In this document: positions 5,738 to 13,608 of the stretch, piece by piece | Position numbering within the stretch: the stretch's first letter is position 1 | Layout of the letters: every line of letters starts with the position of its first letter | NCBI GenBank assembly: GCA_947624665.1 | Contig: CANQLK010000003.1 | Span: 1-37,818, forward strand | Length of the DNA: 37,818 nucleotides | From: Candidatus Gastranaerophilales bacterium | Lineage (GTDB): Bacteria > Cyanobacteriota > Vampirovibrionia > Gastranaerophilales > Gastranaerophilaceae | Direction: 5' to 3' | The notes under the pieces: model-generated | The model's input: only the letters and a program-made list of their open reading frames with translations | Databases searched by the model: none | What the model was told of the DNA's origin: nothing | Translations under genes and position numbers: made by a program

Positions 5738-6448
5738 TTATTTAGAAAATCTGATTTTCCAAATCTTTATAAGTGCTTCGAGCATGATTTTTTTATTTAT
5801 TTTGGATTCTCCGTATTCTCTTTTATTGAATGTAAAAGGATATTCCAATATTTTCATATTATTTTTGAAGCATTTATATTTCATTTCTATTTGGAATGAA
5901 TAACCTTTTGAGATAATCTTGTCTAAATCAATGGAGCTTAAAGCTTTTTTAGTCCAAATATTAAAGCCGCCGGTTAAATCATTTATGGGACAATTCAAAA
6001 TTGTTTTTGCATAAATATTACCCAAACAAGATAAATTTGTTCTGTTTTTATTAGTATCTTTGCTCCAGTGCCCGTCTTTTACATATCTGGAAGATATAAC
6101 CAAATCATATTCTTTGGTTTTTTCTATGCAATCGGGCAATATCTCGACAGGGTGCTGAAAATCACAATCCATTTGTATAAATGTATCATAATCACCTTTA
6201 AGCGCCCATTTAAAACCTTCTATATACGCATTTGCCAATCCGAGTTTCTTTTCCTGTTTTAAAAGATGTAAATTTTTATATTTTTCTTGCAGTTTTTCTG
6301 CTATATTTGCCGTACCATCCGGAGAGTTTGAATCCACGATAAGTACATCTGCCTGCTGATTTTTAAACACTTCATTAAATATTTTATTTATCATTTTTTC
6401 AACATTTAATGCTTCATTATATGTCGGAAGAATTATTATCGGTTTCAT
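5738..6448 (-). CDS. GT2 family glycosyltransferase, polyprenol-phosphate mannosyltransferase (DPM1)-like
   Basis: IILPTYNEALNVEKMI, VDSNSPDGT, MDCDFQHPVEILPD, DLTGGFNIWTKKAL. Confidence 0.85.
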   Translation of the reverse strand: MKPIIILPTYNEALNVEKMINKIFNEVFKNQQADVLIVDSNSPDGTANIAEKLQEKYKNLHLLKQEKKLGLANAYIEGFKWALKGDYDTFIQMDCDFQHPVEILPDCIEKTKEYDLVISSRYVKDGHWSKDTNKNRTNLSCLGNIYAKTILNCPINDLTGGFNIWTKKALSSIDLDKIISKGYSFQIEMKYKCFKNNMKILEYPFTFNKREYGESKINKKIMLEALIKIWKIRFSK

Positions 6449-8072
6449 TTTCTTTTTTCCCCTCCCCCCTTTTTTTAGTTTTTAAGATAAATTTTTTATC
6501 AAATAATTTTTGAAAATCCGTTTTTTCTAATTCTTTTTTGCTAAAACTTCCTCCTAAGGCATAAAACCGTTTAATAGTTTTTTCTTTGGGCATACATATT
6601 GTATATTTATTCGTTTTTATATTATAAATACTTTTTAAGTATCTGTTTGTCTCATTAAAAATATTAATTTTTTCGCAAGAAAGATATATAGGACGATTTG
6701 TATATATTTCTGTCATCATAATTTTTTCTCTCTTATATACTTCTAATCTACATTTTCTTAAAGCTTTTGCCCAGCTTTGTTGTTCTTCAAGCATACTGTT
6801 TATATCCAATTCAACAGGTTTGTATAAGAATAAAAATAGAATAATTATATACAATATTTTAAAAAAGACGTTAACATTCTTACATAAATTCCCGATTAAA
6901 AGACAAACAACCGAGCTTATAAACATAAGAAAACAAAAATGATAAAAAGGTTCAATTATCCAAAATTTGTAATCATCACTTGGGAATGTGTCTCCCGCAA
7001 GAATCAATGTAAAGAAAAAAACCATCATTCCTATTATTGGTACTATATATATAATATTATTTAATATTGCATCTGTAATTTTTTCTTTATCCAGAACCAC
7101 ATTTTTTACAATACCACCAAAGAGAAGTATAAATATCGGCTTATACATATACATATATCTGTCAATAACATAAGCATAATATTCTTTTAGGAACGGAATA
7201 AAATCATTAATTATATCCGTAATTGATTTCGAATACCGCCAGGATACTTCTTTCCAAAATCCGGGGCATAACACTATACTAATAAATCCTATAAAAAATA
7301 ACATTAAAATTGGGGTTGTGGTTTGATTAAAAAATATATCGTTAGTTTTTGAAAAAGAAAATTTATTTTTAATCACAAATAAAAAATACAATAAGAATAA
7401 TGAAACTAATATGGTATAGGCAGCTGTTTCGGTTGAATTTCCCGCACAAAATGCCAATATACACAAAAGAATTTTACTTGTTTTATTTATTTCGGGAATT
7501 CTTTTTTCTTCAATATAAATAACAATGTATTTGTATACAAAAAATAAAAAGGTTAAAGCGAATACCATTGCAAGTACATAACCGTATTGAAAAGAGAATA
7601 GTGACTTATAAGGAAAATAAATGCCATTTTCATAACTATAGAAACAAACTGCTGCAAAAGTCCATAAAGAAGCATATATTATCGGATTTCTGTCTTTTAA
7701 ACAATAAAACATAGAAGATACCGTAAATAACAGAGAAAGAATTATAATATATGCAAACATACCTATGGTATTTGCGGCATTTTGCAAATGTATTCCAAGC
7801 AATTTTGGTATATATACAACAACTAAGCTGGAAATAAAATTGCAGACATATCTTCCGTCTTCTTCCCTCCAAAATGGGGGTGAATCCAATGTTGAATTTA
7901 AATCATCCACATCAAAAAAGCATAAATTCGAAAATATCGGATATAAAATTTTAAATAGGATTGCACTAAAAATTATAACAACCAGAATTAATAAAATATT
8001 ATTAATATTTTTCTGAAAAAATTTACAGTTCACTATTTTAATTCCTTTTGAATTCAAATCATATTTTATCAA
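6417..8072 (-). CDS. polytopic membrane protein, GT-C glycosyltransferase-like/uncharacterised
   Basis: 551 aa with many hydrophobic helices and a soluble C-terminus; adjacent to and overlapping the GT2 gene by 32 nt. Confidence 0.7.
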   Translation of the reverse strand: MIKYDLNSKGIKIVNCKFFQKNINNILLILVVIIFSAILFKILYPIFSNLCFFDVDDLNSTLDSPPFWREEDGRYVCNFISSLVVVYIPKLLGIHLQNAANTIGMFAYIIILSLLFTVSSMFYCLKDRNPIIYASLWTFAAVCFYSYENGIYFPYKSLFSFQYGYVLAMVFALTFLFFVYKYIVIYIEEKRIPEINKTSKILLCILAFCAGNSTETAAYTILVSLFLLYFLFVIKNKFSFSKTNDIFFNQTTTPILMLFFIGFISIVLCPGFWKEVSWRYSKSITDIINDFIPFLKEYYAYVIDRYMYMYKPIFILLFGGIVKNVVLDKEKITDAILNNIIYIVPIIGMMVFFFTLILAGDTFPSDDYKFWIIEPFYHFCFLMFISSVVCLLIGNLCKNVNVFFKILYIIILFLFLYKPVELDINSMLEEQQSWAKALRKCRLEVYKREKIMMTEIYTNRPIYLSCEKINIFNETNRYLKSIYNIKTNKYTICMPKEKTIKRFYALGGSFSKKELEKTDFQKLFDKKFILKTKKRGEGKKENETDNNSSDI

Positions 8073-8094: not shown

Positions 8095-9577
8095 TCAATT
8101 TAAAATATCATACATTTTGCGGAAATCATTTTGCTCTAATTCTTCTTCGCTAAAACTTCCGCCAATGTCATAAAACTGTTTCATAGCTTCTTCTTTTGTT
8201 GTACATATTATATATTTATCGGTTTTTATATTATATATATTTTTTAAGTATCTGTTTGGTTCATTAAAAATATTAATTTCATCACAAAGAATATATATAG
8301 GATTGTTTGTATATATAGATGTCATCATTATTTTTTCATTCATATATACTTCCTGCCTACACTCAATTATATCTTTTTGAATTAATGCCAGTTTATTAAG
8401 TACAACATTTTTATTTGTGCCATATATTTTATAAACATCAAAAAATATTACAACTATTAATAATATCTTTATAAAAACATTGCTGTTTTTACATAAATTT
8501 CCGATAAAAAGACAAATAACCGAGCTAAGGAACATAAAAAAACAAAAATGATAAAAAGGTTCCATTACCCAAAATTTGCTTTCGCCAAAAGTTCTTCCTG
8601 CTGCAATCAATGTAAAGAAATATGCCATCATCCCTATTACAGGCATTATAAATATGAAACTGTTTAATATAGCATTTGTAATTTTTTCTTTATCCCATAC
8701 CACATTTTTTACAATGTCACCCAAGAGAAGTATAAATATCAGTTTATATATATTCAAATATCTTTCAATAACATAAAAATAATATTCTTTTAGGAACGGA
8801 ATAAAATTATTAATTATATCCGAAGCTGATTTTGAGTGCCGCCAGGAAACTTCTATCCAAAATCCGGGACACAATACCATACAAAGAAATCCTATAAAAT
8901 ACGACATTAAAATCGGAGTTGTTGTTTTATTAAAAAATATACCGTTTGTTTTTGAAAAAGAGAATTTGTTTTTAAAAAGAAATAAAAAGTATAATAAAAA
9001 TAATGAAACTAATATGGTATAGGTAGCTGCCTGAGTTGAATTTCCTGCACAAAAGAATTTTACTTGTTTTATTTATTTCGGGAATTCTTTTTTCATCAAT
9101 ATAAATAACAATGTATTTGTATACAAAAAGTAAAAAGGTTAAAGCGAATACCATTGCAAGTACATAACCGTATTGAAAGGAGAATAGTGTAAAATAAAAA
9201 ACACTATTTTCATTTAAACCATTTAAATATTGATAAAAAAATATGCCCGCAAAAGTCCATAAAGAAGCATATATTATCGGATTTCTGTCTTTTAAACAAT
9301 AAAACATGGAAGATATTGTAAATAACAAAGAAAGGATTATAATATATCCAAACAAACCTATGGTATTTGCGGCATTTTGAAAATGTATTCCAAGCAATTT
9401 TGGTATATATACAGCAACTACTCTGGAAATAAAATTGCAGACATATCTTCCGTTTTCTTCTCTCCACAGCGGGTATGAATCCAATGTAGAATTTAAGTCA
9501 TCAACATCAAAAAAGCATAAATGCGATAAAACAGGTTTTAACAGCCAATATAAAAGAGCACTTCCCAAAAGAACCAC
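8095..9577 (-). pseudogene. tandem paralog of the 6417-8072 membrane protein, broken by a frameshift
   Basis: ORFs 8095-8907 and 8972-9577 match the C- and N-terminal parts of the neighbour (LCFFDVDDLNSTLDS, NAANTIG, CPGFWIEVSWRHSKS); frame lost at ~9048-9054 where 17 nt are missing relative to 7445-7468. Confidence 0.85.
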
Positions 9578-9697: not shown

Positions 9698-11146
9698 ATG
9701 AATATGAAAAAAATAATGTTAATATATCCGCCGGGGCGGTCTTTTCAAAGGGGAGAAGAAAGATGTCAAATCGATATAGATTCTTCTGCTGCCAATACAC
9801 ATAGACCTTGTAACGATTTGGGATATATGGCAGCAATTCTGAAAAAGTCAAATTACAGTGTTTTTTTAAGAGATTATCAAGGGGAAAATGCTTTATTAAA
9901 AGACTTATTGGATGATATAAACAAAGAATCTCCGAATTTTATTTTTTTAAGTATAACTAACGGAAGTATTTTAGATGATTTAAAAATTGTCAAAAAAATA
10001 AAAGAAACAAAACCCGATATAACCGTAGTTTTAAAGGGAGCATTATTTTTTAATCCTGAGGAAAGACTTTTCCGTGAATTAGATTATTTAGAAAATGTCG
10101 ATTACCTTATTGGCGGAGAACCTGAATTTATAACAGGTCCTTTAGTTAATGCTCATTATAAAGATAAAACTTTATTAAAAAATATTCAGGGTATTTCTTA
10201 CAAAGAAAACGGCAAATGGGTCAGCAATTATCTTAAAGATTTTTGCGATGATTTAGACAGCCTGCCTTTTCCTGACAGAAGTTTAATGAAGAATGAACTG
10301 TATATAAATCCCGAAACAAACAGACAAATGGCTAGTATTACTACGGCAAAAGGCTGCTGCTTCTCTTGTAAATATTGTTTATCGTCTATAATATCAGGGA
10401 AAAAAGTCAGGGAACGTTCTACAAACAGTATTTTTGAAGAAATAAAAGAATGTTTTTTTAAATACGGGATAAAAGACTTTTTCTTCCGTTCGGACACTTT
10501 TACCGTAAACAGGCAAAAAGTTATTGATTTATGCAATTTAATCATAAATTCCGAGTTAAACGGCAAAATCAACTGGGTTGCAACTACAAGGGTTGATACT
10601 ATTGATGAAGAAATGCTTAGATTAATGAAAAAATCAGGATGTTCATTGCTTTCTATCGGGTTTGAATCGGGCAGCGACGAATCTTTAAAGCTAATGAAAA
10701 AGAATACAAGTACATGGCAAAATCTTAAAGTCGCTAAACTTTGCAAGAAATACGGTATAAAAATATTCGGTCATTTTCTTGTCGGGTTTGACTGGGAGGA
10801 TGAACGCCACCTTGAGCTTACTAAAAAACATATTTTTGATATTGATGCCGATTACATTGAAGTATCAATTGTTACACCCTATTATCGTACGGAAATTTAT
10901 GAAGAATTAATTCAGTCTAAAAACATCATGCCTGATATTTTAGGGTTTGACTCATACGGGCATGTATTAAATCATTATTCAAAATTATCGGCTGACACAT
11001 TACAGCATTATAGGAAGCAGGTATTAAGGGAGTTTTATTTGCGTCCCAAATACATAATAAGGTGTTTAATGAGAATAAAATCATTATCGGTATTAAAAAA
11101 TTATATACATTATGGGATGAAGATGATAAAAAATACTCTGTTTTAG
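9698..11146 (+). CDS. B12-binding-domain radical SAM protein
   Basis: N-terminal domain of B12-binding type (MLIYPPG...LGYMAAILKKSNYSVFLRDYQGE) and CX3CX2C in TTAKGCCFSCKYCLSS; TRVDTIDEEMLRLMKKSGCSLLSIGFESGSDESLKLMKK. Confidence 0.9.
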   Translation: MNMKKIMLIYPPGRSFQRGEERCQIDIDSSAANTHRPCNDLGYMAAILKKSNYSVFLRDYQGENALLKDLLDDINKESPNFIFLSITNGSILDDLKIVKKIKETKPDITVVLKGALFFNPEERLFRELDYLENVDYLIGGEPEFITGPLVNAHYKDKTLLKNIQGISYKENGKWVSNYLKDFCDDLDSLPFPDRSLMKNELYINPETNRQMASITTAKGCCFSCKYCLSSIISGKKVRERSTNSIFEEIKECFFKYGIKDFFFRSDTFTVNRQKVIDLCNLIINSELNGKINWVATTRVDTIDEEMLRLMKKSGCSLLSIGFESGSDESLKLMKKNTSTWQNLKVAKLCKKYGIKIFGHFLVGFDWEDERHLELTKKHIFDIDADYIEVSIVTPYYRTEIYEELIQSKNIMPDILGFDSYGHVLNHYSKLSADTLQHYRKQVLREFYLRPKYIIRCLMRIKSLSVLKNYIHYGMKMIKNTLF

Positions 11147-12350
11147 CGGCGACGGCGAAGCGTGTGAGATTGTATCCGAGCGAGTCTTTGCTGAAATTTA
11201 GATTTTCATTATTCGTAATTCGAAGCTGACGTAATTAAATTATTTTTTAATATTAAATAAAAAAGAGAAATTGGATAACGGATACTTCGCTTCTATTTTA
11301 CTAAATTCAACCTAAGGCTTCGTAACTCACCGATTTCATCGGTTCAAACAGACGAAGCCTTGACGTTGTTTCATTAAGTAAACTTACGAAGCTCCGTATA
11401 TGTTCTCCAATTCCTCTTTTTTTATTTCAAAATTTTTTAAATTCAAAATTATGAAAGAATAAAAAAAATAATTTTAATTTAAGTCAGCTCTAATGGAGAA
11501 TAATAGAAAATCTTATTGAAGAAACAGCAAGACGAGCACTGTTTGAACGGAGCAACGCAAAGCGAATTATTGAGCCGTCAGGCGAAATCAATGAGCCTGA
11601 ATTTGAAGCGGAGCGAGTTTGCGAGTCTTTGCTGAAATTTAGATTTTCATTATTCGGAATTCGAAGCTGACGTAATTAAATTATTTTTTAATATTAAATA
11701 AAAAAGAGAAATTGTCGAACGGATACTTCGCTTCTATTTTACTAAATTCAACCTAAGGCTTCGTAACTCCCGATTTCATCGGTTCAAACAGACGAAGCCT
11801 CGACGTTGTTTCATTAAGTAAACTTACGAAGCTTCGTATATGTTCTCCAATTCCTCTTTTTTTATTTCAAAATTTTTTAAATTCAAAATTATGAAAGAAT
11901 AAAAAAAATAATTTTAATTTAAGTCAGCTCTAATGGAGAATAATAGAAAATCTTATTGAAGAAACGGCAAGACGAGCACTGTTTGAACGGAGCAATACAA
12001 AGCGAATTATTGAGCCGTCAGGCAAAATCAATGAGCCTGTATTTGAAGCGGAGCGAGTTTGCGAGTCTTTGCTGAAATTTAGATTTTCATTATTCGGAAT
12101 TCGAAGCTGACGTAATTAAATTATTTTTTAATATTAAATAAAAAAGAGAAATTGTCGAACGGATACTTCGCTTCTATTTTACTAAATTCAACCTAAGGCT
12201 TCGTAACTCCCGATTTCATCGGTTCAAACAGACGAAGCCTCGACGTTGTTTCATTAAGTAAACTTACGAAGCTTCGTATATGTTCTCCAATTCCTCTTTT
12301 TTTATTTCAAAATTTTTTAAATTCAAAATTATGAAAGAATAAAAAAACAA
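11147..12350. repeat. tandem array, about 2.7 copies of a ~440-bp non-coding unit
   Basis: GCGAGTCTTTGCTGAAATTTAGATTTTCATTATTC begins at 11180, 11621 and 12061 (periods 441 and 440); cores of copies 2 and 3 appear identical; third copy stops after ...ATTATGAAAGAATAAAAAAA. No long ORF. Confidence 0.95.
11180..11530. repeat. long imperfect inverted repeat, repeat-unit copy 1
   Basis: Left arm AGATTTTCATTATTC..AGCTGACGTAATTAAATTATTTTTT...AAAAAAGAGAAATTG...GGCTTCGT pairs with right arm ACGAAGCC...CAATTCCTCTTTTTTT...AAATAATTTTAATTTAAGTCAGCTCTAATGGAGAATAATAGAAAATCT; apex CCGAT-TTC-ATCGG. Confidence 0.8.
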
Positions 12351-12366
12351 TAAACCTTTTGTCACT

Positions 12367-13608
12367 TTAAGAATTAAATACTCTAAAGATTTCTTTTAAA
12401 AATTCATAGCCTTTTATATAAGAGATATAGTCAATCTGCTCATCAGCCGAGTGCATATTAAATACGTCAGCAAGTCCTATTAAAACGGGTTTTAGTTTTT
12501 TACCGTGCTTGTTATTATTGTTCGCATATATATGAGTTTCGGCACCTGCGTGGAATGAAGATACATCCAATTTAAGTTTTAAGTTTTCGCCTGCTTTTTT
12601 ACAAACCTCAACCAAAGTTTCATCACTGCTTTTTTCAAACGGCGGCAAATGTTCAGATGTTTCCATTTTCGCAATTGCAAGATTTTCGTATTTTTTATTA
12701 AAATTATCAACCGTTAATTGTATTTCCCGAATTAATTTATTTTCATACTCTTTACTTGAGCTTCTTATTGAATATGCGGCGCCTGCTTTTATATTAATTA
12801 CGTTTGTAACCGCTTTATCTATTATCGTATCAATAAACTCGGAGGATTTAATATTATTTTCTTTAATATAATTAACGGCGGTTTCAATACCTCCCCCTGT
12901 AATTACACCAAGATTTATTGAAGTAATAACCCCGAATTCATCTTGTTTATATACACCTTGAGGTATATCATTAACCAATTCCGCTATTAATTTAGCGGCA
13001 TTTAGTCTTGTTTTATCGGCGATATCGATACCCGAATGACCACCCTTTAAGGTTTTAACTTTTATGACCAGTTTAGTATAACCTGCACCCGATATTTGCA
13101 CCTGACCTAATTTATCGGCATCCATTACAAGAATGTATTCTGAATTTATTTCATTCATTTTAACGTTATGAATACCGGTCATATTTTGTTCTTCGTCACG
13201 GGTAAAGGTAATTTCAAGTCCGCCGTGTTTAAAGTCTTTGTTTTTTGAGAGTTCAACTGCAAGATTAACTGCGGCTGCAACTCCTGCTTTGTCGTCAGCA
13301 CCTAAGGTTCTTGTTTTGTCAGTTTCTATTATATTTCCGTTTAACCTGATGTTAACGGGAGAATCATCCCCCACTACATCCATGTGCGAGCTTAACATTA
13401 AAGATTTTTTGCTTGAATTCGTAGCGGGAATGTATGCTCTAATGTTTCCATAGTCATCCTTTCGGGCTTCTATATTGTTATTCTTAAATATTTCCAATAT
13501 TTTATCAGTAACTTTTTCTTCTTTCAAAGAAGGCGAAGGTATTTCAGCCAATGTGCAAAACAAATCGACAAGTGTATTTTCTTTTCTGAGTTCATTTATA
13601 TTATCCAT
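12367..13608 (-). CDS. M20-family peptidase, tripeptide aminopeptidase (PepT)-like
   Basis: LMLSSHMDVVGDD, RTLGADDKAGVAAAV, TRDEEQNMTGI, GGHSGIDI, SFHAGAETHIY. Confidence 0.85.
   Translation of the reverse strand: MDNINELRKENTLVDLFCTLAEIPSPSLKEEKVTDKILEIFKNNNIEARKDDYGNIRAYIPATNSSKKSLMLSSHMDVVGDDSPVNIRLNGNIIETDKTRTLGADDKAGVAAAVNLAVELSKNKDFKHGGLEITFTRDEEQNMTGIHNVKMNEINSEYILVMDADKLGQVQISGAGYTKLVIKVKTLKGGHSGIDIADKTRLNAAKLIAELVNDIPQGVYKQDEFGVITSINLGVITGGGIETAVNYIKENNIKSSEFIDTIIDKAVTNVINIKAGAAYSIRSSSKEYENKLIREIQLTVDNFNKKYENLAIAKMETSEHLPPFEKSSDETLVEVCKKAGENLKLKLDVSSFHAGAETHIYANNNNKHGKKLKPVLIGLADVFNMHSADEQIDYISYIKGYEFLKEIFRVFNS

Follow-up and report, generated by a model that had tools for sequence, protein, structure and literature searches.

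Bacterial extragenic palindromes have been sorted into two tagged superfamilies, GTAG and CGTC (PMC3733652). The GTAG repeats (REPs and BIMEs) are mobilised by RAYT (Y1) transposases, and the CGTC REPs carry CGTC at their terminus, a CCA tail and a stem of 8-9 bp closed by a loop of 4-5 nt (PMC3733652). In pneumococci, the BOX, RUP and SPRITE clusters are bacterial MITEs that insert into one another (PMC10969869).

The window, the whole stretch of 37,818 nucleotides that was analysed, comes from a Candidatus Gastranaerophilales bacterium (genome G000) and contains a 440-bp non-coding tandem repeat at 11180-12347 (period 440, 2.7 copies, 98% matches), the array length being that of a short-read assembly. 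The units start at 11180, 11621 and 12061 (spacing 441 and 440) and no ORF of at least 80 aa overlaps 11147-12366, in agreement with the original prediction of a tandem array of ~440-bp units explained by no ORF. The long self-pairing that closes on CCGAT-TTC-ATCGG was borne out by folding: the single strand 11618-11975 reached -94.6 kcal/mol, compared with -60.3 ± 5.7 kcal/mol for dinucleotide shuffles (z -6.0), and the full 440-bp unit gave a z of -7.1. The array and its neighbours comprise the following features (strand given where assigned).

9698-11146, plus strand: radical SAM gene, left neighbour of the insert
11147-12366: whole insert of 1,220 bp, between the stop codons of two convergent genes
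11147-11179: C-like fragment containing GGCGAAGCGTGTGAGATTG, left edge of the insert
11180-11262, plus strand: truncated B element, right half (blastn against the compact B of G036)
11256-11428: A element copy 1 (blastn; the same hairpin on contigs C1, C10, C140 and C58 and in congeners)
11304-11371, minus strand: tip of A copy 1, core CTGTTTGA-ACCGATGAAATCGGT-GAGTT (covariance model R2, 57.9 bits)
11463-11703, plus strand: B element copy 2, left arm 11463-11553, right arm 11602-11703, with C inside the loop
11548-11614: C piece in the loop of B copy 2, between CGGAGC hexamers at 11548-11553 and 11609-11614 (read from the sequence)
11697-11868: A element copy 2 (blastn)
11745-11811, minus strand: tip of A copy 2 (covariance model R2, 57.3 bits)
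11903-12143, plus strand: B element copy 3, left arm 11903-11993, right arm 12042-12143
between CGGAGC at 11988-11993 and CGGAGC at 12049-12054: C piece in B copy 3
12137-12308: A element copy 3 (blastn)
12185-12251, minus strand: tip of A copy 3 (covariance model R2, 57.3 bits)
12367-13608, minus strand: M20 peptidase gene, right neighbour of the insert, convergent with the radical SAM gene

The repeat unit consists of two alternating dispersed hairpin elements, A and B, rather than of one palindrome. We took A and B as the natural units because they are found apart from each other at other sites: A (~172 bp) also stands alone in congeners as a hairpin of ~170 nt, and B alone is a compact palindrome of ~175 bp whose loop reads GCACTGTTTGAGCGAAGCGAGTTTGC. 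In the window, the B loop carries an extra piece of ~60 bp, C, flanked by the 6-bp direct repeats CGGAGC; the compact B of congeners is without C, and C-like pieces also stand alone elsewhere. Words of the C-like fragment at the left edge recur in the B loop on C1 and within an A copy on C102. Elsewhere in the same genome, one B is followed by one A at C1:35.5k, with the same order on C10. Judged from the sequence, the giant palindrome ascribed to each unit runs from the right half of one B through A into the left half of the B that follows in a tandem B-A array; the self-pairing stands, but the inverted repeat does not coincide with a unit. A third element type, D, has the same tip as A and B.

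Parts of the unit occur at about 12 further places in G000, an undercount because several contigs end inside a unit, and A or B modules were found in 28 of the 41 species of the genus, so that the dispersed copies the original prediction had proposed to look for are indeed present. In two sister species, G031 (L084) and G039 (L080), the stop codons of the same convergent genes overlap and the insert is missing, from which we conclude that the 1,220 bp were acquired: A and B entered a zero-length spacer between convergent genes. An "old palindrome" is the wrong description of an array whose copies are 98% alike and which both sister species lack at this position. A second A site (L326) is filled in G039 and G029 and empty in G031, G030, G032, G036 and G021, where 0-20 bp separate the convergent stops and no hairpin is seen. 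An orthologous hairpin lies downstream of pyrG in six species, with a remnant of it in G027, and its place is taken in G030 and G032 by a plain terminator, AAAAAATCCCTTTTTAGGGATTTTTT; the orthologous copies at this site change both arms together. The empty sites of A and B are too diverged for a target-site duplication to be read, and only C shows a 6-bp direct repeat. In G039, the two flanks of each composite copy at L323 and L324 are unlinked in relatives, suggesting that the elements may take part in rearrangements.

The same genomes held two other repeats. An insert of ~113 bp with GC-rich hairpins (L287 1341-1460, G023) is cleanly absent from the orthologous G037 site (L293), and this comparison indicates that the genus harbours a further kind of small mobile hairpin. 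On contig 1 of G030, four 44-bp matches to an intergenic part of G027 (L303) recur every 84 bp at 292871-293166; this tandem repeat looks unrelated to the hairpin family.

The tips of A, B and D have in common an apical internal loop, CTGTTTGA-[variable paired stem]-GAGTT. A pattern with a free insert matched in 26 of 41 genomes of the genus, compared with a single match for the reversed control. The loop letters follow from the pattern used in the search and so carry no weight as evidence by themselves. Across a set of 70 distinct inserts, in which no rows were selected for pairing class, the apical (outer) stem averaged 4.06 bp, compared with 0.63 ± 0.12 bp after shuffling; 47 distinct matches from other Cyanobacteriota gave 0.66 bp, the random level. 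In a 32-row alignment of the continuous-stem class, 93.4% of cells paired (32-44% when slid), with double changes in 104 cells. The covariation score was 0.780, somewhat inflated by the choice of rows for their fit to this class, versus 0.214 when shuffled and at most 0.220 when slid. The stems flanking the loop are kept by compensatory change. Covariance model R2 also recovered tips with an altered loop (TTGTTTGA in G211, G148 and some G324 copies). For the long hairpin ncRNA that had been suggested, the structural constraint is real, but it could act either on folded DNA or on RNA.

The R2 core was found in 62 of 146 relatives at the level of Gastranaerophilaceae (26 of 41 genera), with up to at least 36 copies per genome. 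In a phylum-wide sample of Cyanobacteriota, 43 of the 44 positive genomes were Gastranaerophilaceae and the remaining one was marginal. A stricter pattern scanned over 84,980 species genomes gave at least 118 stretches. By title, the matches listed include Zoogloea, Gallionella, Solimicrobium, Methylophaga, Lachnospiraceae, Veillonellaceae, Bacteroidales, Parabacteroides, Eggerthellaceae, Syntrophus, Patescibacteria, Nitrospirales, Endomicrobium and Propionigenium, and most of them are the tips of long hairpins; the motif tips long hairpins in at least seven phyla besides that of the host. Among the matches listed, 105 unselected cross-phylum loci had a median arm score of 27, compared with 14 for a mismatched-locus control, whose 99th percentile was exceeded by 62 of the 105. 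A few coding-looking matches (L149, L176, L182, L205, L230 and L256 among them) are probably due to chance. Across 72,556 plasmids, the 36-nt consensus of one common core, which detects this variant only, had three partial matches; phages and E. coli gave none, and a scan of viral contigs gave one match, without a hairpin. From these sequence searches, the elements look chromosomal and patchy over phyla.

On contigs of at most 58% GC, 42 motif loci lay between tandem genes, 12 between convergent genes and one between divergent genes, with a background of 280 tandem, 52 convergent and 48 divergent gene pairs; divergent spacers are thus depleted (1/55 motif loci versus 48/380 background pairs). 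Five further motif loci on these contigs lay inside ORFs.

Compared with the GTAG REPs and BIMEs, the present elements are likewise intergenic palindromes forming many genome-specific families with a common short tag in several phyla. Inverted pairs occur as well: in G324 (L381, L383, L385, L390), tips stand head-to-head ~230-270 bp apart within a longer repeat of at least 36 copies, an arrangement resembling BIME pairs. However, the tag of a GTAG REP is at the foot whereas here it is an internal loop at the hairpin tip, GTAG REPs measure 20-40 bp and the present elements ~170-440 bp, and GTAG REPs go with RAYT whereas the copy number of the present family is not tracked by Y1 genes. As read from the sequence, GTAG and CTAC are absent from A copy 2, which places it outside the GTAG REPs. 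The CGTC REPs are similar in being palindromes of several phyla without a dedicated transposase, but CGTC occurs in one subclass only of the present family, inside the stem at the loop border, and the GGA-CTGTTTGA subclass is without it; the anatomy does not fit the terminal tag, stem, loop and tail that define those REPs. Both kinds of REP work similarly to the present elements, yet tag, size and transposase keep the present elements out of them.

Bacterial MITEs are likewise small, non-coding, dispersed, nested and intergenic (PMC10969869), and the elements described here are short, non-coding, multi-copy and dispersed, with sites empty in relatives. MITEs carry a signature of terminal inverted repeats and target-site duplication, whereas A and B are conserved at the tip and their outer ends vary between copies. 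The suggestion of a MITE-like palindromic element amplified in tandem holds for the dispersed copies, the empty sites and the lack of an ORF, but the array combines two families and an insertion, the family is defined by the internal-loop motif at the tip rather than by terminal inverted repeats and spans many phyla, and neither a target-site duplication of A or B nor a cognate transposase was found.

Integron attC sites have the boxes RYYYAAC and GTTRRRY. They resemble the present elements in being imperfect hairpins with conserved unpaired positions that form arrays, but the conserved sequence here is unlike these boxes and no gene cassettes lie between copies, there being no ORF in the array. 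None of the 4227 Rfam families reached its gathering threshold and there was no relevant weak match; the skipping-rope motif, tried as an identity, did not match either. A literature search by the letters of the motif, with most subscription journals outside its reach, returned primers and unrelated titles only and no paper on the motif.

Two enzyme families were tested as candidates for moving the hairpins. Y1 transposases were no commoner in high-copy genomes (6/20) than in zero-copy genomes (9/20), and RAYT (Y1, PF01797) is absent from G000 (88% complete); as these genes do not track copy number, RAYT/Y1 was rejected as the mobiliser. Reverse transcriptases (13/20 high-copy versus 8/20 zero-copy genomes) were not convincing. 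No recurrent gene or transposase stands beside the 118 loci among the matches listed, the largest neighbour clusters being translated repeats or housekeeping proteins, an absence that fits the expectation for non-autonomous elements.

These results lead us to favour, with a probability of about 0.58, a superfamily of non-autonomous mobile hairpins, REP- or MITE-like, whose folded tip would be recognised by a putative trans-acting enzyme. We infer that this enzyme would recognise the extruded or single-stranded hairpin through the CTGTTTGA / GAGTT tip motif and would carry it into new intergenic sites, in the manner proposed for RAYT transposases acting on REPs. The B+A composite would then have multiplied in tandem by ordinary unequal exchange or slippage. 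Most copies stand downstream of genes, where their cost is probably low.

The main rival is a structured RNA serving the host, in which 3'-UTR or terminator hairpins, their tip bound by a conserved host protein, aid transcription end or mRNA stability. We consider it unlikely, although an RNA role could just as well be what maintains the tip motif: the hairpins are A-rich at the left edge and T-rich at the right edge, a T-run stands 3' of the A stem, copies lie downstream of genes and often between convergent ones, and at pyrG the hairpin takes the place of the plain terminator of G030 and G032. Against such a function, the occurrence is patchy, in one species and not in the next, a terminator scan of the array (allowing loops of 3-8 nt only) finds none, and Rfam gives no match. 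Ordinary MITEs, descended from an IS with a transposase specific for terminal inverted repeats and retaining the tip motif as a relic of the ancestral element, would account for the size, palindromic form, dispersal and tandem and nested copies typical of such elements (PMC10969869) and for the 6-bp direct repeat of C in the B loop. We regard them as improbable, since a tip conserved over phyla with ends that vary between genomes and within one genome is the reverse of what recognition of terminal repeats predicts; the motif is also nearly missing from the plasmid and phage collections, and no transposase recurs beside the listed loci.

The outer arms bear on two further explanations. At loci in several phyla, locus-specific DNA forms a near-perfect inverted repeat as the outermost part of the hairpin, with 25-67 aligned nt at L240, L237, L185, L186, L201 and L157, while in Zoogloea and the window's own genome the outer arms are common to the family; in the AT-rich genomes of the genus, the test of outer-arm identity is not discriminating. 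At L240 the repeat overlaps the final codons of the LuxR-type gene upstream, suggesting a flank copied in inverted form, or a palindrome grown by template switching, rather than a family-specific end. Template switching during replication (quasi-palindrome correction), by which the arms copy each other and the flank with no dedicated enzyme, would explain locus-specific outer repeats of up to ~60 bp (e.g. L240, L237, L185, L186, L201) and the joint change of both arms in orthologous copies. It leaves unexplained an invariant loop across phyla and dispersed copies with the same inner arms, and as the origin of the palindromes is highly unlikely. Locus-specific arms may reflect creation at insertion or later concerted change. 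An undescribed cross-phylum superfamily in which a putative folded-strand enzyme makes locus-specific inverted flank copies at insertion is a speculative and rather doubtful possibility; if true, inverted flank copying at insertion would be a new mode of transposition. Insertion into pre-existing terminator loops, considered as a source of the outer arms, is unsupported at the L326 site, where five relatives are without a palindrome; L217 and L175 look terminator-like, so that it may apply elsewhere.

If the mobile-hairpin superfamily recognised by its folded tip is real, it would be a third tagged superfamily of palindromes beside GTAG and CGTC, with an internal loop at the hairpin tip as its tag, and would span Cyanobacteriota, Bacillota, Bacteroidota, Pseudomonadota, Actinomycetota, Patescibacteria and others. 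It would also suggest that a nucleic-acid-binding or mobilising protein is widespread and has gone unrecognised, and the pattern and the covariance model offer a precise means of searching for this protein by co-occurrence.

Elsewhere in the window, two adjacent minus-strand ORFs of 201 and 270 aa (8095-9577) resemble parts of one membrane protein. That protein looks paralogous to the intact 551-aa ORF at 6417-8072, with which the pieces have DVDDLNSTLDS..WREE..GRYVCNFIS in common, and by this resemblance the pair is probably a broken duplicate of the membrane protein gene.
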